NCBI RefSeq assembly: GCF_900111165.1
Contig: NZ_FOGH01000002.1
Coordinates: 62,001 to 126,000 of the forward strand
Direction: 5' to 3'
Origin: Nitrosomonas sp. Nm51
GTDB lineage: Bacteria; Pseudomonadota; Gammaproteobacteria; Burkholderiales; Nitrosomonadaceae
DNA: 64,000 nucleotides
The notes beneath the pieces are model-generated. The model had not been told where the DNA came from. It ran no database searches and worked only from the letters and a program-made list of their open reading frames with translations. Positions within the stretch are counted from its first letter, which is position 1. Each line of letters opens with the position of its first letter. This document shows, piece after piece, positions 9,107 to 37,101 of the stretch. The position numbers and the translations under genes are program-made.

Positions 9107-12100
9107 ATGAGAACTTCGGATTTAGCATCCCAGACGCGGGCAACGGCTTCAATGCCTAATTTTCAATTGGATATTACAATTGCGGACCTGTATTTGCGGG
9201 AAGGTTTACTCAAGATAGATCGCGCGTTTCAGGATTATTTGCATGAGGGCGATGCGGTGCTCTATGAGAAACTGTTGAGCGCCCGCCAGACGCCCGATTC
9301 ACTCCAGCCAAAGGATGAGTCCGCGTTACTGATTGAAATTGCGCCTTGGGTTGAAGATTATATCGCGAAGTTATTCGGCATTGAGACCGAAGTTAAGTCG
9401 TTAGCTGAAGAACACCACGAACTGGCGCCACTTTATTTTTGCAAACGACAGTTTGTGCAACGCCGGGCGAAGGGTAAAGTCAGTGTCGAAGAGTTGGGCG
9501 GAATCGATGGTCCTGCATTAGAAAAAGCGCTCGAAACTGAATTTGGAGAATCATTCTCAGAATTGGTTTTTGCTAAGCATGTGGCGCTGTGGATGGAAGA
9601 TGAGGCCGCTCATGCAGAACGCCTGAAAATGGCGTTGCACTATGCGGCCTGGGCATTACGAACACCGGAAGGACAGGCGCATACACATGCTGGCATTTTG
9701 TTTAAATCGCCGGCGAAGCTGGACTTCCAGAATTTGTTGTCTCTAAAGACTGACGATACACAGGGTTTCCCGCTGCATACGGTTGACCACCTAAGACACC
9801 GCAATGGTTTTGCGTTGACCGATGAAGGTACCGATTTGGCAGGGGCGCTGGATGAAGCCAATTATTGTATCTGGTGTCATGAACAGGGTAAAGATTCATG
9901 TTCCAAGGGACTGAAAGAAAAAGCCAAGACTCCGGAGGAAACGCCTGCATTTAAAAAAAGCGAGCTTGGCGCGTTACTGGCAGGGTGCCCGCTTGAAGAG
10001 CGTATTTCGGAATTTCACAAACTTAAAACGCAGGGTGTTGCCATCGGCAGCCTGGCCATGATTGCGCTGGATAATCCAATGTGCGCGGGCACCGGACATA
10101 GAATATGCAATGATTGTATGAAGTCCTGTATTTATCAGAAACAGGACCCGGTCGATATTCCTCAGGCAGAAACACGGACTCTGAAAGATGTGCTTGCGCT
10201 GCCGTGGGGTTATGAAATCTACAGTTTATTGACGCGCTGGAACCCGTTAAATCTGCGCCGGCCTGTTCCCAAGGCGCCAACAGGGAAAAAGGTCCTGGTC
10301 GTGGGCATGGGACCGGCCGGGTATACATTGGCGCATCACTTGATGAACGACGGACATACGGTTGTCGGCATTGATGGCCTGAAAATCGAACCGTTGCCGA
10401 AGCACATTTCTGGTGTCAACATGCACGGTGAACGTGTTCCGTTTGATGCCGTTTATGATGCCAGCGAGCTTGACGAGGATCTAAACGAACGCATACCGGT
10501 TGGATTTGGCGGCGTGGCGGAATATGGCATTACCGTACGCTGGAACAAGAATTTTCTTAAGCTGATTCGCCTGTTGCTTGAACGCAGGAATCAGTTTGCA
10601 TTATTTGGCGGTGTCCGTTTTGGCGGCACGTTGACAACCGATGATGCTTTCGCTATGGGTTTTGACCATATTGCTCTGGCTGCGGGCGCTGGAAAACCGA
10701 CAATATTGAATTTGCCGAATGGTTTGGCGCGCGGCGTGCGGGCAGCCTCGGATTTTTTGATGGCGCTGCAATTAAGCGGCGCATCTCAGAGCGATTCAAT
10801 TGCCAATATGCAGCTGCGACTGCCTGTAATCGTGATTGGAGGTGGTTTGACTGCAATCGATACGGCAACGGAAGCGCTGGCCTATTATCCGGTTCAAGTG
10901 GAGAAATTTTTGCAACGCTTTGAAATTCTGTGTGCCGTTCAGGGAGAAGAAGTATTGCGCTCGGTCTGGGATGCTGAAGAAACTGAGATTGCAGATGAGT
11001 TTTTACGGCACGGACGCGCCATCCGTGCTGAACGTGAAATGGCAAAACGCGAGGGGCGTGAACCGGACGTTCTGTCTTTATTGCAGTCATGGGGCGGTGC
11101 AACCATCGCTTACCGTAAACGCTTGGTTGACAGTCCATCTTATACGCTGAATCACGAAGAAGTCGAAAAAGCGCTTGAAGAAGGGATCGCGTTCGCAGAG
11201 GGATTAACGCCGATACGCATCAATGTCAATCAATGGGAACATGTACAATCTGTACGGTTCTCCATACAAAAACGTGATGAGACCGGGCAGTGGCAGGCGG
11301 CTGGTGAAATAGAACTGCCCGCGCACGCATTACTGGTTGCTGCAGGCACGCAGCCTAATACGGTGCTGGCACGGGAGGATGCGGAAATCTATAAACTGGA
11401 TGGCCGTTATTTTGCATCATGTGACGAGATGGGCAACACAGTTACGCCCGAATACGGCAATCCAAAATCTGGAGCTTCGGTCTTGCTGGGCCGTTATAAA
11501 GATTCTGCGGACGGGCGTTTCATCAGTTTTTTCGGCGACCTGCATCCATCTTATTCAGGTAATGTGGTTAAAGCAATGTCGAGTGCCAAGCAGGGCTATC
11601 CTGTCGTCAGCAAAGTGTTGAACCAAATTGCACCGTCTTCTGATAAAGCAACCGAACAGTTTTTCGCTGAATTTAACAATCAGCTACGCCCGGTTGTACA
11701 CAAAGTTGAAAGGCTGACGCCGAATATTATCGAAGTTGTTGTGCATGCGCCGCTGGCTGTCAGCCGTTTCCGTCCGGGACAATTTTACCGCTTTCAGAAT
11801 TATGCATCACTCGCACCGGTTGCTGGCGATACCCGGATGGCAATGGAGGGTATTGCGTTAACTGGTGCCTCGGTGGATGTTGATCGTGGTCTGGTCTCGT
11901 TGATTGCACTGGAAATGGGTGGTTCGGCGGATTTGTGTGCTTCATTGAAACCTGGTGAGCCGGTGATACTAATGGGACCTACAGGCACACCGACTGAAAT
12001 TGAGCCGGGTGAAACGGTTGTACTTGTTGGCGGTGGATTAGGCAACGCAGTATTGTTTTCCATTGGTGCCGCGGCGCGTGCGGCGGGATCCAAGGTGCTT

Positions 12101-12643
12101 TACTTTGCTGGATATAAGAAGCTTGTTGACCGGTATAAAGTGGCTGAAATTGAAGCAGCTGCAGATACAGTGGTCTGGTGTTGTGATGAAACACCGGGGT
12201 TTGAAGCGACCAGACCGGGTGATAAACAATTCGTTGGTAATATTGTTGAAGCAATGGTTGCGTATGGCAGTGGCCAGCTGGGAGAACAACCTGTGCCGCT
12301 GATGGATGTCGATCGCATTATCGCGATTGGTTCCGATCGTATGATGGCTGCTGTAGGGGCGGCGCGATACAAACAGCTAAAACCATATTTGAAAGCTGAT
12401 CATTTTGCAATCGGATCGATCAATTCGCCGATGCAGTGCATGATGAAAGAAATATGTGCGCAATGCCTGCAGCCGCATAAAGACCCTGAAACCGGCGAAA
12501 TTACATATGTCTTTTCCTGTTTTAATCAGGACCAGCCACTTGATCAGGTGGATTTTGTCAGTCTGGCATCGCGCCTGCGGCAAAACAGTGTTCAGGAAAA
12601 ACTAACCAGCCGTTGGATTGACCGCTGTCTTGGTAAACGATAA
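9107..12643 (+). CDS. Large multidomain flavoprotein: GltD/NfnB-like plus PyrK/NfnA-like fusion
   Basis: A 1178-residue cytoplasmic protein. Residues about 1-250 are unrecognised and mainly helical. Cysteine clusters follow at about 252-265 (CIWCHEQGKDSC) and 326-343 (CAGTGHRICNDCMKSC), resembling the Fe-S N-terminus of GltD/NfnB. A Rossmann FAD site (VLVVGMGPAGYTLA) is near 395 and a second nucleotide site (VIVIGGGLTAIDTATEAL) near 575. From about 860 a ferredoxin-reductase/PyrK-like module appears (RPGQFYRF, LVGGGLGNAVL) with a terminal 2Fe-2S motif CMMKEICAQC and a further cysteine near 1130. The order corresponds to NfnB joined to NfnA, so NAD(P)H-ferredoxin-type electron transfer or bifurcation is inferred. 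It is downstream of the cys terminator but in the same direction. Start uncertain: ATG at 9107, or 9152. Confidence 0.7.
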   Translation: MRTSDLASQTRATASMPNFQLDITIADLYLREGLLKIDRAFQDYLHEGDAVLYEKLLSARQTPDSLQPKDESALLIEIAPWVEDYIAKLFGIETEVKSLAEEHHELAPLYFCKRQFVQRRAKGKVSVEELGGIDGPALEKALETEFGESFSELVFAKHVALWMEDEAAHAERLKMALHYAAWALRTPEGQAHTHAGILFKSPAKLDFQNLLSLKTDDTQGFPLHTVDHLRHRNGFALTDEGTDLAGALDEANYCIWCHEQGKDSCSKGLKEKAKTPEETPAFKKSELGALLAGCPLEERISEFHKLKTQGVAIGSLAMIALDNPMCAGTGHRICNDCMKSCIYQKQDPVDIPQAETRTLKDVLALPWGYEIYSLLTRWNPLNLRRPVPKAPTGKKVLVVGMGPAGYTLAHHLMNDGHTVVGIDGLKIEPLPKHISGVNMHGERVPFDAVYDASELDEDLNERIPVGFGGVAEYGITVRWNKNFLKLIRLLLERRNQFALFGGVRFGGTLTTDDAFAMGFDHIALAAGAGKPTILNLPNGLARGVRAASDFLMALQLSGASQSDSIANMQLRLPVIVIGGGLTAIDTATEALAYYPVQVEKFLQRFEILCAVQGEEVLRSVWDAEETEIADEFLRHGRAIRAEREMAKREGREPDVLSLLQSWGGATIAYRKRLVDSPSYTLNHEEVEKALEEGIAFAEGLTPIRINVNQWEHVQSVRFSIQKRDETGQWQAAGEIELPAHALLVAAGTQPNTVLAREDAEIYKLDGRYFASCDEMGNTVTPEYGNPKSGASVLLGRYKDSADGRFISFFGDLHPSYSGNVVKAMSSAKQGYPVVSKVLNQIAPSSDKATEQFFAEFNNQLRPVVHKVERLTPNIIEVVVHAPLAVSRFRPGQFYRFQNYASLAPVAGDTRMAMEGIALTGASVDVDRGLVSLIALEMGGSADLCASLKPGEPVILMGPTGTPTEIEPGETVVLVGGGLGNAVLFSIGAAARAAGSKVLYFAGYKKLVDRYKVAEIEAAADTVVWCCDETPGFEATRPGDKQFVGNIVEAMVAYGSGQLGEQPVPLMDVDRIIAIGSDRMMAAVGAARYKQLKPYLKADHFAIGSINSPMQCMMKEICAQCLQPHKDPETGEITYVFSCFNQDQPLDQVDFVSLASRLRQNSVQEKLTSRWIDRCLGKR

Positions 12644-32478: not shown

Positions 32479-35400
32479 ATGAGTTGGAAAAAACAATTAA
32501 TCGATGTCGTGTTTTTCAGTGGGCTGGGCAGTGTGCTGGCCAAAGCGCTACCTGAACACTGGCAGCGCCGTGTAAACGAACGGCTGGGCGATTTTAATCC
32601 TTACAACGTTATCGCAGGCAATCAGGATTTGGTGCGCGCGGCGCGGCTGGCGTGGATCAAAGCTGCGCTGGAAGTGCTGGATGCAGCCAAAGAGAGCGCA
32701 CAGTCCAGCGGCAGAGAGGAATTTGATCAAAAGAATGATATTCTGCGTTTTGAGTCGGTAGCACGCCAAAGCTTGATCAAAATTCGATCCGATGCATTTG
32801 ACCGGCGCACCCATCCCGGTGCTACGCCGATTGATGCGCATCTGAAAACAATCATCGAGGGAACATCGGAATTCATCGCGCCGGATGAAAATCCTGCGCT
32901 GGATCAGTCGCCAGCCCTGGACTTCGACAATACGCTCGCGGCGGTTACCGGCAGGTCGGCGAATGAAATACCTGCCATGTTCAGACAGATTGCGCGAGAC
33001 GGTCTTCCTACGGTAAATCAAGGTGAGAAGCGGCCATTTGGCGAACTAGTTTTTGCCGCATTTGCGGAAATACTGAAAAGCCCGGATCAGTACCCGGAAG
33101 CCTATCCGGCGTTTACTATCGCTACGCTGGATGCCGCGCGTAAGCTTTCAGAGGAAATACTGACAGCTGTCCGGGGCATTGACGGCAAAGTGGATCAACT
33201 GATTGTGCAGACCGATGCGCTGGCTGTCTTTCAAACCGGTGCAAAAACATACCTCGAACTGTTGCCACGGCTTCTGGAAGGACAGGAGCGGCTTGAAGCA
33301 CTGGCACTGACTACTCTGAACGGTGTTCAGGCGGTCAAAACAGATACGGAAGAAATCAAGGATGTTCTACATCGTATTGAACAATCCGCAAAATCGAACC
33401 CTGCCGCCAGCGAGGAAGAAGTGCTGGCCGAATATTCAAAACTGCTCGCTCAGCTTGACCGGCGTGAATTCAGGCAAATACTCAATGCGGTTCCTGAAAG
33501 CCTGAACACTTTCCGCGCACAGTGCATTGCCCGCTGGTCGCAACCCCTGTATGCCATTGACAAGCAGTTCACGCCATTGACATTGCTGCTTGATCAGGGC
33601 GATGAACATGAGGGTGAACGTTACCGGAGAAGCCGACCATACCATGATCTGCGCGATATTTTAACCGCGGTGGACGCTGCAACAGAACCCGTTATTGCCG
33701 TGACCGGCGGGCCGGGCAGCGGTAAAAGTACGTTGCTGCGCCGTTTGGAGCTAGACCTTGCCAGCAGCGCTTTGCGTTCTGAGGATGTGGATGCGCCACT
33801 GACAATGTTCTTGCCGCTGAATGACTTTGGCGATAAAAACAGCTTCCCTAAACCGGCTGACTGGATTAAGGAAAGTTGGGATCAAAATAAAAAATTGTGG
33901 TTGTCTTCTCAAGACTTGCTTCGCCAGCCACTTATCCTGTTGCTCGATGGTTTGAACGAAATGCCGCGCGTGGACCGCGCGGATTATGATGCACGGCTGG
34001 CGGCCTGGAAAAATTTTTTAAACGATCTGGCGTTGAATCATCCGAGTGTGCGCGTCATTTTCAGTTGCCGCACGCTGGATTACGGCACTAAATTAACCAC
34101 CAAAGACCTGCCGCGTGTGCCGCAGGTGGAGGTCACGTTACTGGATGATGCGCAGGTAGAGAAATTTCTGCATGTGTACAGCCCGGACACTGCGGTGCAT
34201 TTGTGGGATCAACTCAAGGATTCTGAACAGCTTGAATTGTACCGGTCGCCGTATTATCTCAAGTTGCTGATCGATCAGACCAGCGACGGCCGGATACCCG
34301 AAGGCCGCGCGGCATTGTTTACCGGTTTTGTGCGCGCCATGCTCGCGCGTGAAATGGACAACACTCGTTTGTGCAATGCGGATTGGCTGTTGACGGAACG
34401 TGATCTGAAACGGATCGGGCATTGGCGCGATGCTTATGAGCTGCCAAACCGTGGCGTTTTGTTTAATGCGCTGGCCGATTTTGCGTTTCAATTGCAAACC
34501 CAGCGCAACGATGGCGATACCGATAACGCCGGTAACACAATGCAAGTACGTATCGATATTGACGATGCCCTCAAGTGTTTATCGGCGCAGATACCGGATG
34601 CGCCGCAACAGGAACGCTTGCTCGGTGCCGCGGTTGATCTGCAGATTCTGGATATGCCGGGTGACGATGTGCTGTTTGTGCATCAGTTGTTGCAGGAGTA
34701 TTTTGCCGCGCGGCATCTGGCTGAACAGTTTAATAATGCCGGAAATGCCGGGGAACAGACCGCAAGCCTCGATTGGGTCCAAACAGCCTGGCTTGAGGGC
34801 GATATTTCGCCGACTGTGCGGGAGGTGCTTGCAACCTTGCCGCGCTCGGGCACTTTGCCCGCTCTGCCGACAACCGGCTGGGAGGAAACATTCATGCTTG
34901 CGGCGGCGATGACTAATGCGCCCGACGATTTTCTGCATATGCTGGCGCAAGTAAACCTGCCGCTCGCAGGACGCTGCGCGGCGCAGCCGGATGTAAAAAT
35001 TTCAGATGCGTTGCGCCGCGATTTACAGCAACGGCTGGTTGCGCGCAGCCGCGATTCCGGGGTTGATTTGCGCGCACGCATCCATGCCGGTGACGCGCTC
35101 GGCCGGTTGGGCGACCCGCGTTTTGAACCGCGTCAGGGTAAATATGGCCGTTATTTGTTGCCGCCGATGGTTGAAGTCGAAGGTGGAATCTACAGCATTG
35201 GCAGCGATGAAGGCATCGAAGACGATGAATCACCGCGGCATGACGTCGAGCTAACGCCGTTTGCGCTGGGCCAGTTTCCGGTCACCAACGCGGAATTCAA
35301 ATGTTTTATCGATGCCGGTGGTTACGACGATGAATGCTGGTGGGACACGCCGCAGGCGCAGCGCTGGCAACGCGGCGAAAGTACAGGTGAAGCAGGCCGG

Positions 35401-36105
35401 GTAAACTGGCGTTACTTCCGTAACCAGTTTAAAAGCGATGCGGCATATTTTAAGCAACTCGCCGATGAACAAGCCTGGACTGAAGAAAGCATCCAGCAAT
35501 GGAAAGGGTACATTGGCATGACCGATGAAGCCTTTGAAGCGTTGTTGGAAGATCAATGGCCCCACCAGCGTTTTATGTTGCCACAGCTTTGGAACGATCC
35601 CAAATATAATGCGCCTGCGCAACCGGTTGTCGGGATTTGCTGGTTCGAAGCGCGTGCGTATTGCGACTGGCTCAGTGCGCAAACAGGACAAAATTACCGC
35701 TTACCGGCCGAGGCGGAATGGGAAGCCGCAGCAGGCGGCAAAGCGGGCAGACGCTATCCGTGGGGCGATACATTCGATGCAACAATGTGCAATACGATCG
35801 AAACCCGGTTGCGGCGCGTAACCCCGGTTGGTATTTTTCCAGCCGGCGATACACCGGCGCCGGCATCAGAGGCCGGTATTGCGGATTTGCCGGGCAACGT
35901 CTGGGAATGGACCGACAGTCACTATCAGGCTTATCCGTACCGTGCCGATGACGGCCGGGAAGCGGTCGATAGCGGCGCGGGGCGTGTTATCCGCGGTGGT
36001 TCCTGGAACTACGACGGCTGGCTCGTTCGTTCTGCTCTCCGCGGCAGGTACGGCCCTGACGGGCGTGGCAACGGTCTTGGTTTCCGTCTTGCCCTAGGTC
36101 ATTGA
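32479..36105 (+). CDS. Giant NACHT NTPase fused to a C-terminal FGE-sulfatase/C-type-lectin-like domain; possible DGR target
   Basis: 1208 residues. Residues 1-400 are helical and unrecognised. A NACHT-type STAND NTPase follows: Walker A GGPGSGKST near 410-418, Walker B LILLLDGLNE near 485-494, sensor-like FSCRTLDYG, winged-helix part and QLLQEYFAARHLAEQ near 735-750. A formylglycine-generating-enzyme-like domain covers about 898-1206 (SIGSDEG, PVTNAEFKCFI, LPAEAEWEAAAGG, DLPGNVWEWTDS, GGSWN). FGE-fold C-termini of this kind are ligand-binding surfaces rather than enzymes in many retroelement-diversified proteins, and STAND proteins are often signal-sensing switches, some in antiphage defence. 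Start: AGAAAAAAGCCTGTC before the ATG is only a fair ribosome site. GC content is higher than in the flanking housekeeping genes. Target and ligand unknown. Confidence 0.85.
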   Translation: MSWKKQLIDVVFFSGLGSVLAKALPEHWQRRVNERLGDFNPYNVIAGNQDLVRAARLAWIKAALEVLDAAKESAQSSGREEFDQKNDILRFESVARQSLIKIRSDAFDRRTHPGATPIDAHLKTIIEGTSEFIAPDENPALDQSPALDFDNTLAAVTGRSANEIPAMFRQIARDGLPTVNQGEKRPFGELVFAAFAEILKSPDQYPEAYPAFTIATLDAARKLSEEILTAVRGIDGKVDQLIVQTDALAVFQTGAKTYLELLPRLLEGQERLEALALTTLNGVQAVKTDTEEIKDVLHRIEQSAKSNPAASEEEVLAEYSKLLAQLDRREFRQILNAVPESLNTFRAQCIARWSQPLYAIDKQFTPLTLLLDQGDEHEGERYRRSRPYHDLRDILTAVDAATEPVIAVTGGPGSGKSTLLRRLELDLASSALRSEDVDAPLTMFLPLNDFGDKNSFPKPADWIKESWDQNKKLWLSSQDLLRQPLILLLDGLNEMPRVDRADYDARLAAWKNFLNDLALNHPSVRVIFSCRTLDYGTKLTTKDLPRVPQVEVTLLDDAQVEKFLHVYSPDTAVHLWDQLKDSEQLELYRSPYYLKLLIDQTSDGRIPEGRAALFTGFVRAMLAREMDNTRLCNADWLLTERDLKRIGHWRDAYELPNRGVLFNALADFAFQLQTQRNDGDTDNAGNTMQVRIDIDDALKCLSAQIPDAPQQERLLGAAVDLQILDMPGDDVLFVHQLLQEYFAARHLAEQFNNAGNAGEQTASLDWVQTAWLEGDISPTVREVLATLPRSGTLPALPTTGWEETFMLAAAMTNAPDDFLHMLAQVNLPLAGRCAAQPDVKISDALRRDLQQRLVARSRDSGVDLRARIHAGDALGRLGDPRFEPRQGKYGRYLLPPMVEVEGGIYSIGSDEGIEDDESPRHDVELTPFALGQFPVTNAEFKCFIDAGGYDDECWWDTPQAQRWQRGESTGEAGRVNWRYFRNQFKSDAAYFKQLADEQAWTEESIQQWKGYIGMTDEAFEALLEDQWPHQRFMLPQLWNDPKYNAPAQPVVGICWFEARAYCDWLSAQTGQNYRLPAEAEWEAAAGGKAGRRYPWGDTFDATMCNTIETRLRRVTPVGIFPAGDTPAPASEAGIADLPGNVWEWTDSHYQAYPYRADDGREAVDSGAGRVIRGGSWNYDGWLVRSALRGRYGPDGRGNGLGFRLALGH
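35983..36102 (+). other. Candidate variable region (VR) of a diversity-generating retroelement target
   Basis: The last 40 codons encode GRVIRGGSWNYDGW, then RSALRGRYGPDGRGNGLGFR. This matches the RSAxRxRxxPDxRxxxxGFR spacing of known FGE-fold variable regions, where x is an AAC codon in the template. At the x and neighbouring positions the codons are AAC, TAC, GAC, GGC, TGG, CTC, GGC, TAC, GGC, GGG, GGC, AAC, GGT, nine of them or more ending in C. The interleaved constant codons mostly end in T. No template repeat or reverse transcriptase occurs in this window, so ordinary FGE-family divergence remains possible. Confidence 0.5.
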
Positions 36106-36111
36106 GCTCAA

Positions 36112-36140
36112 GACAGGCAAGTCAGACAGGGTTTGCCGTC
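36112..36140 (+). other. Hairpin just after the NACHT-FGE gene
   Basis: GAC(A)GGCAA pairs with TTGCCGTC (8 bp with one bulged A) around a 12-base loop, 6 bases past the stop. There is no T tract, so it is a poor terminator. Hairpins at this position are required for retrohoming in studied diversity-generating retroelements, which makes it worth recording. Confidence 0.45.
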
Positions 36141-36281
36141 AGCCGCCACTTGGCAACCGTGCGTCGGAGCGCGCGGAAGGACAAATGGCGGATGGCGGCA
36201 ATGCGTCGGAACAGCATTGATGCGGTTCTAATGCCGTAATATCAATGATGTTACGGGTCAAGCCTGCCGGATGAACATCGT

Positions 36282-36352
36282 GTAGGATGTGCTGACGCAG
36301 GAAGCGCATCAACTGATGTGCCGACAAAGAAAGCGCATCAACCGATGTGCAA
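36282..36352. repeat. REP-like repeat pair, left side of the RAYT gene
   Basis: Two units containing GCGCATCAAC-(T/C)-GATGTGC, at 36282-36322 and 36329-36352. The first unit is the inverse of the sequence at 36997-37037 with about 38 of 41 bases matching. The second matches 36968-36990 in inverse orientation. A third weaker unit (GCGTATTCATTGATGC) follows at 36361. Confidence 0.8.
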
Positions 36353-36413: not shown

Positions 36414-36944
36414 ATGACCGCATACCGGCGTATTCATGCACCCGGTGCTTCCTGGTTTTTTACCGTCAATCTTGCTGCGCGAAAAAACAACCGGCTGCTG
36501 GTCGACAACATTGATTTATTGCGCGAAGCGTTTGATACTGTCAAACAGCGCCGCGCGTTTCGTATCGACGCCGTGGTGATTTTGCCGGATCATCTGCATT
36601 GCATCTGGACATTGCCGCCATCGGATGCAGATTTTTCCACCCGGTGGAATATGATCAAAGGATATTTCTCACGTCATATCGAAACAGGCGAGTCTATCTC
36701 TGCGAGCCGCCAATCCCGGCGCGAAAGAGGCATATGGCAGCGCCGCTTCTGGGAGCATTTGCTGCGTGATCAGAACGACTTTAACCGGCATGCGGATTAT
36801 ATTCATTGGAATCCCGTTAAGCATGGGTGGGTCGAAAAGGTGCGTGATTGGCCGTATTCCAGTTTTCACCGGCACGTGAAACAAGGTGTTTATCCGGAAG
36901 ACTGGGGAACTGTTGCGCATGGCGAGATAGACGTTATTGAATAA
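36414..36944 (+). CDS. REP-associated tyrosine transposase (RAYT, Y1 family)
   Basis: A 176-residue Y1 HUH-type nuclease. VILPDHLHCIWTLP carries the HxH metal-binding motif, and YIHWNPVKHGWV with the following WPYSSFHRHVKQG the catalytic-tyrosine helix region of RAYTs. The full length and intact motifs suggest activity. It is framed by inverted REP-like units on both sides, which these enzymes nick and mobilise. Single-copy RAYTs are usually vertically kept rather than insertion sequences, so this is listed as a gene and the repeats separately. Confidence 0.9.
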   Translation: MTAYRRIHAPGASWFFTVNLAARKNNRLLVDNIDLLREAFDTVKQRRAFRIDAVVILPDHLHCIWTLPPSDADFSTRWNMIKGYFSRHIETGESISASRQSRRERGIWQRRFWEHLLRDQNDFNRHADYIHWNPVKHGWVEKVRDWPYSSFHRHVKQGVYPEDWGTVAHGEIDVIE

Positions 36945-36967: not shown

Positions 36968-37037
36968 GGCACATCGGTTGATGCGCTTCCTGTATCGGTG
37001 CATCAGTTGATGCGCTTCCTGCGTCAGCGCATCCTAC
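36968..37037. repeat. REP-like repeat pair, right side of the RAYT gene
   Basis: Units GCACATCGGTTGATGCGCTTCC (36969-36990) and GCATCAGTTGATGCGCTTCC (from 36999, running on to CATCCTAC at 37037) are arranged head to tail and inverted relative to the left-hand pair. Confidence 0.8.
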
Positions 37038-37101
37038 GGGATTTGAGAAGGGTTTGTCGGGTATGAAGTTTTGATGTGTTCATCGATGAATTGACCGTCT
37101 A

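Follow-up and report, generated by a model that had tools for sequence, protein, structure and literature searches.

The 3' end of a NACHT NTPase gene in Nitrosomonas sp. Nm51 raises the question of whether its C-terminus is diversified by a retroelement and, if so, from where in the genome it is written. The stretch of DNA analysed here (the window) covers 64,000 nucleotides, C77:62001-126000, of a genome of 3.24 Mb in 131 contigs. A first-pass annotation, made from the letters of the window, had read this end as a variable region of a diversity-generating retroelement (DGR), pointing to a regular residue spacing and to codons ending in C, both of which are present in the gene. The NACHT and FGE identities that it proposed were borne out by Pfam (Table 1). 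The PDB matches of the FGE domain are mainly FGE-type enzymes, and also include the DGR variable protein TvpA (2y3c, E 4.9e-5). The variable repeat (VR) lies at the C-terminus of what is predicted to be a C-lectin-fold protein; AlphaFold2 modelled the FGE domain with low confidence (mean pLDDT 58.9, below 50 over most of the VR). A domain search with residues 1-390 for an N-terminal effector gave only an MRS2-like match under the cut-off (E 0.04).

A search of the whole genome with window positions 35940-36140 returned three further copies, all within 3 kb on contig C82. One of them is the near-identical copy with A at the differing sites that the annotation had predicted, namely the template repeat (TR) beside a reverse transcriptase (RT) gene, and the others are the VRs of two linked genes (VR1 and VR2). 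Compared with the TR, the window VR is changed at 17/29 A sites and at 0/98 non-A sites (Fisher 9.7e-14), VR1 likewise at 17/29 and 0/98, and VR2 at 18/29 and 0/98. The place given earlier for the variable region (35983-36105) was thus right and its extent was not, the repeat being 35971-36097, with a slightly earlier start. The 96-bp core of the TR holds 26 A, spread over nine AAC codons and six others, which allows for ~10^15 protein variants; all nine AAC codons are variable, in agreement with the idea of AAC codons altered at their adenines, and a single AAG codon is able to yield a stop. The first non-A difference between VR and TR is at 36098 (G in VR, C in TR), one base past the VR core. 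This G-for-C change, at the 3' end of the putative IMH/IMH*, is common to all three VRs of the TR type named class A (classes A to F are labels of this analysis), and the identical difference also separates VRs from TR in genome G046.

Plain FGE homology, or gene conversion between paralogues, could give similar ends without reverse transcription, and FGE ends are indeed conserved around RGGSW and GFR. However, the A-only pattern (0/98 non-A against 17/29 A changes) already refutes this explanation, and FGE ends not tied to the class A TR differ at both A and non-A sites. As a control, a homologous FGE end on C58, not written by the class A TR, differs from it at 19/70 non-A and 15/26 A sites, so domain homology alone does not produce the A-only pattern, and we regard this explanation as extremely improbable. 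With a TR and a DGR-type RT in the genome, and with all VR/TR differences at template adenines, the DGR reading of the gene end is well supported.

The RVT_1 search of the genome placed the RT gene amid the three C82 copies. Its accessory gene is of the HRDC type and not the avd-like gene that had been expected; it overlaps the RT gene by 26 nt, and the TR begins 24 nt past the last base of the RT stop. The RT, assigned to its family by the RVT_1 profile, has an open frame, keeps the YMDD motif (invariant in A1), and carries an IGSLTSQ motif, motif 4 of DGR-type RTs being IGxxxSQ. Two further RVT_1 matches were considered as DGR RTs and rejected: the one on C73 reads as an RT beside a Cas1-like protein, and we take it to be a CRISPR-type RT with a Cas1-like part; the one on C84 reads as, and presumably is, a group II intron fragment.

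Table 1. Features of the NACHT-FGE gene and its downstream region (window coordinates) and of the DGR locus on contig C82 (coordinates of locus L005 = C82:160001-180000, all genes on one strand).
Feature	Position	Strand	Basis or remark
NACHT-FGE target gene	window 32479..36105	+	1208 aa; ORF and Pfam
N-terminal region of the 1208-aa target	before NACHT	+	no domain recognised by Pfam
NACHT NTPase domain, residues 405-532	33691..34074	+	PF05729, E 4.8e-11
FGE-sulfatase domain, residues 895-1205, C-lectin-type scaffold bearing the VR	35161..36093	+	PF03781, E 6e-50
VR, 127 bases at the end of the NACHT-FGE gene	35971..36097	+	TR comparison
Unchanged 3' block of the VR, IMH-like	36076..36097	+	no difference from TR
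Possible 3' DNA hairpin	36116..36137	+	paired sides co-change across three syntenic species (G000, G012, G067)
RAYT (REP-associated tyrosine transposase), directly downstream of target	36414..36944	+	NF047646, 207.5 bits
74-nt inverted repeat flanking RAYT, 89% complementary	left arm 36277..36350, right arm 36969-37042	+	
TIR gene	L005 4410-5876	same strand	first in locus order
MoxR-like AAA gene	L005 5897-6922	same strand	AAA_5/AAA match
961-aa protein ending in FGE, with VR1	L005 6926-9811; VR1 9557-9683	same strand	
HRDC accessory gene	L005 9808-10302	same strand	PF00570 1.1e-18
RT gene	L005 10277-11284	same strand	RVT_1 1.5e-15
TR	L005 11308-11434 (C82:171308-171434)	same strand	directly after RT
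285-aa FGE protein with VR2	L005 11594-12451; VR2 12317-12443	same strand	

With the VR set aside, the NACHT protein's FGE domain shares only 29% and 27% identity with those of the two C82 targets (172 and 205 aligned residues). Because these backbones are so distant, the 98 identical non-A bases point to TR copying rather than to close gene kinship. The window VR and the TR lie on separate contigs (C77 and C82), at least ~142 kb apart; judged by sequence comparison, the NACHT-FGE gene is thus a remote (trans) VR target of the unlinked C82 DGR, with TR information copied over at least ~142 kb. Very probably, its 3' end is a remote VR that belongs to the one DGR detected in the genome and is rewritten in trans via the TR, RT and HRDC protein of C82. 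Seven further TR/VR systems in the genus, with 11 VRs that each show 0-2 non-A differences, support this reading, and a reconstituted DGR in E. coli was reported to act on targets on a second plasmid or the chromosome (PMC12875486, main-text parts). A viral origin was set aside on weak evidence, a constant 33-nt VR block, searched as one exact pattern, having given 0 exact matches in the viral collection; a first scan of named genomes with the NACHT protein gave no match.

According to the mechanism that we propose, TR RNA would be produced on contig C82 and turned into cDNA, with errors at adenines, by the linked RT and its HRDC-domain partner; this cDNA would then replace the VR in the two linked C82 genes and, in trans, the VR ending the NACHT gene, a process that may still be active today. 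Misincorporation of DGR RTs at template adenines and VR replacement by cDNA are described in the main-text parts of PMC10907252. The variable patch would sit on the ligand-binding face of the C-lectin-type FGE domain, and the NACHT protein would be a STAND-type sensor whose NACHT module switches on ligand binding, so that a foreign molecule bound by the patch may lead the N-terminal region to trigger a defence response. This immune role is a proposal made in common with PMC10907252. A variable sensor for kin or cell-cell recognition, and not for phage defence, seems rather unlikely: Nitrosomonas is named in that paper's main text among the bacteria of dense microcolonies, and many published cellular DGR targets are thought to be surface proteins binding other molecules or cells (PMC8144416, main-text parts), whereas the sensor carries a NACHT domain, weakly resembles the antiphage NACHT protein EruA (9.6e-10, a match that falls far short of the cut-off), and is served by a DGR whose neighbours are TIR and MoxR-like AAA genes.

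We also surveyed 85 genomes of the genus, the window genome included, which compares species and not strains of one species. TR-like DNA was found in 17/85 genomes, a figure that pools VRs and templates across several classes. RT matches (E 1e-10 or better) occurred in 15/85, not all of them DGR RTs, and the NACHT part (residues 1-874) in 13/85, several of these broken or partial. Among chosen sets of VRs, the 14 with their TR in the genome show 0-2 non-A differences and the 7 without it show 4-13 (Mann-Whitney p 9e-5, post hoc), the templates for the latter coming from other species and adding divergence of their own. Left out of this count were VRs without an assigned class or with a cut TR, among them those of G047 C202, G048 C48, G017 at 1.67 Mb, G057 C12, G018 and G040 C78; the C45 VR was likewise left out.

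In the window genome itself, at least four more FGE ends are of the VR type (two each on C58 and C45); part of the ends of its 12 FGE matches were inspected. In the 96-bp core, one C58 end differs from the class B TR at 6/70 non-A sites and one C45 end from the class C TR at 7/66, and template searches of the window genome found no class B or C template. On C45, the FGE ends at L256 1358-1492 (+) and 2856-2951 (-) belong to a third DGR class, the second ending in VLCSSPIE, with no template found in the genome. On C58, the FGE gene end at L016:5330-5440, upstream of the C58 RAYT, lacks the sequence that separates RGG from the final FR codons, as if its VR had been deleted. In G003 (C113), L246:6640-6780 is an A-rich, template-like repeat of class C type with a stop, flanked by an FGE gene on one side and a broken RAYT on the other; G003 has no RT match at 1e-10, and this repeat is likely a fossil DGR.

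The hairpin downstream of the window VR folds no better than shuffles (z -0.55). Elsewhere, the local VRs have z values of 0.22 and -1.25 and the G012 orthologue has -2.49; for one G046 VR and both VRs of G083, z ranges from -2.97 to -4.81. At L096:7703-7772 (G046) a VR is followed by a REP-like palindrome with a 12-bp stem (z -4.8), and at L016:6926-6995 (C58) by a weaker one (z -1.2); such REP-like palindromes might serve as the 3' hairpin for homing. The weak window hairpin, and the at least four other VR-type ends left in this genome without a template of their class, would suit a DGR that wrote the window VR in the recent past and is now silent, the VR being a fixed allele. We consider this unlikely: the RT frame is open with its catalytic motif kept, and the TR and all three class A VRs are identical at 98/98 non-A sites, against the higher counts given above for the seven VRs without a matching template, where the foreign TR adds its own divergence.

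Two RAYT genes exceed the family cut-off in the window genome (Table 1; L016:5484-6050 on C58), each beside an FGE gene with a DGR-type end. In 12 genomes, own included, picked for holding VRs or sensors, 9/34 RAYT loci have an FGE gene within 1 kb, with 0.27 expected (uniform placement, rounded genome sizes), and all RAYT-FGE pairs are co-directional (12/12); for this count, pieces of one gene were joined manually and short FGE pieces retained. In a tree of 25 RAYTs, however, those dwelling in FGE arrays fall mostly into two lineages, and the nearest kin of the window RAYT are not beside FGE genes. A role of the RAYT as DGR partner was not retained, since the association is strong in the sample but largely by lineage, the window RAYT being a separate case; the link of the downstream RAYT to the DGR is uncertain. 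The leading strand of replication is usually G-rich, and GC skew was positive on the VR coding strand in 18/21 regions (27 VRs), the background being 15/27 genes in non-VR loci and 97/157 genes in VR loci. Going by GC skew, it is suggestive only that VR targets run with replication, an orientation in which homing works better according to the main-text parts of a 2026 study (PMC12875486).

Six orthologues of the sensor were compared in detail: those of G000 (window) and G012 with a class A VR at the C-terminus, G040 and G067 with class B, and G017 and G048 with class C. G084 (broken, class C-like end) and G003 (end of another type) were not included, and no end of the VR pattern was seen at the loci of G001, G053, G056, G063 and G066. 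Against the TR of the VR's own class (96-bp core), A and non-A changes amount to 17/26 and 0/70 in G000, 16/26 and 4/70 in G012, 12/26 and 7/70 in G040, 16/26 and 9/70 in G067, 21/30 and 13/66 in G017, and 21/30 and 6/66 in G048. The TR of the VR's own class was detected in G000 only (1/6); none was detected with the other five, of which G012, G040 and G048 are fragmented, so that a template could be missed there, and G017 and G067 are single contigs. G012 holds a DGR of class C, G067 of class D and G048 of class F, and no RT match at E 1e-10 was found in G040 or G017. In the five other genomes, whatever matched a template of class A, B or C lay either within an FGE end or, in G012, in that genome's own class C template.

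In G000, G012 and G067 the sensor lies in one neighbourhood, glyA, nrdR, ribD, sensor, asnB (names from reading translations), and the sequences flanking the VR align on both sides. At this locus two species (G000, G012) have a class A VR and the third (G067) a class B VR, with both flanks retained. At 26 diagnostic sites, which set the class A template apart from that of class B and involve no template A, G000 carries the class A base at 25 and the class B base at 0, G012 at 21 and 2, and G067 at 3 and 17, the rest being neither. G000 and G067 are 86% identical in the 180 nt upstream and only 67% at 67 constant VR sites; for G000 and G012 these values are 81% and 96%. A backbone tree without the VR joins G000, G012 and G067 (100/99) with G040 outside, and grouping the two class B rows as a clade is rejected (AU p 0.0002). 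These alignments and trees require at least one change of VR class at the ribD-sensor-asnB locus; for all three classes, the best tree needs 3 changes, the least possible being 2. Class B could be the older state at the locus. The change could stem from homing of another DGR's cDNA, or from conversion by a class B gene elsewhere; G067 does hold additional FGE genes with matches to the class B template. Its sensor gene is split into two frames, by decay or assembly error.

A tentative reading, which we put forward as possible more than probable, is that the sensor is a stable docking site for successive DGRs, the gene keeping its chromosomal position and its antigen-binding tip being overwritten by whichever class a lineage holds (A, B or C) and the last class being kept after DGR loss. 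A change of DGR class within one orthologous target would be the new element here, NACHT-lectin sensors and trans targets being already in print (PMC10907252, main-text parts); no published description of such a change was found in the main-text parts of the literature searched.

The comparison with published systems draws on main-text parts of the papers cited, PMC3240598 and PMC10053308 among them. In multicellular bacteria, DGRs were reported to diversify NACHT-lectin and MoxR-type conflict proteins, with trans targets, and Nitrosomonas is listed among the hosts of multiple DGRs (PMC10907252). Those systems resemble ours in their NACHT-C-lectin targets, their trans targets, and MoxR-ATPase loci that hold a long and a short lectin target, as C82 does. 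Unlike what is described there, a MoxR/TIR-type DGR locus here serves an unlinked NACHT gene, and one orthologous sensor bears VRs of different DGR classes across species. The Treponema denticola DGRs (PMC4891356) share an HRDC accessory gene that overlaps the RT gene, remote targets and a VR left over from another type of DGR, and their TvpA is a distant PDB match of the sensor FGE domain; however, their targets are described as lipoproteins, and that VR was interpreted as a remnant gene and not as a class change in an orthologue. In cyanobacteria, unlinked VR genes are likewise served by the genome's DGR, and 9 variable proteins from 6 species have IS200/IS605-family transposases nearby, which can be likened to the setting of the window RAYT, whereas the hosts and the RT group differ and the main-text parts mention no RAYT (PMC7517822). 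The VMAP ternary conflict systems with DGRs (Kaur 2020, PMC7159879) also combine a MoxR ATPase with an FGE-type target and have the TR nearby or elsewhere in the genome, but Pfam gave no vWA or VMAP match in the C82 genes, which sets the locus apart from the VMAP/MoxR ternary systems. Remote targets were beyond the reach of the survey in PMC8144416, as its main-text parts describe it.

For this ammonia-oxidising genus, the locus thus offers a clear case of DGR writing in trans on an immune-receptor-like gene, in which a single template would feed two kinds of putative conflict protein. Orthologues with and without a matching template provide a natural comparison of the effect of DGR writing on the receptor. 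If the docking reading is true, DGR classes would be interchangeable diversifiers of one immune receptor, and the ribD-sensor-asnB locus gives a way to ask how a pre-existing receptor comes under a new diversifier.
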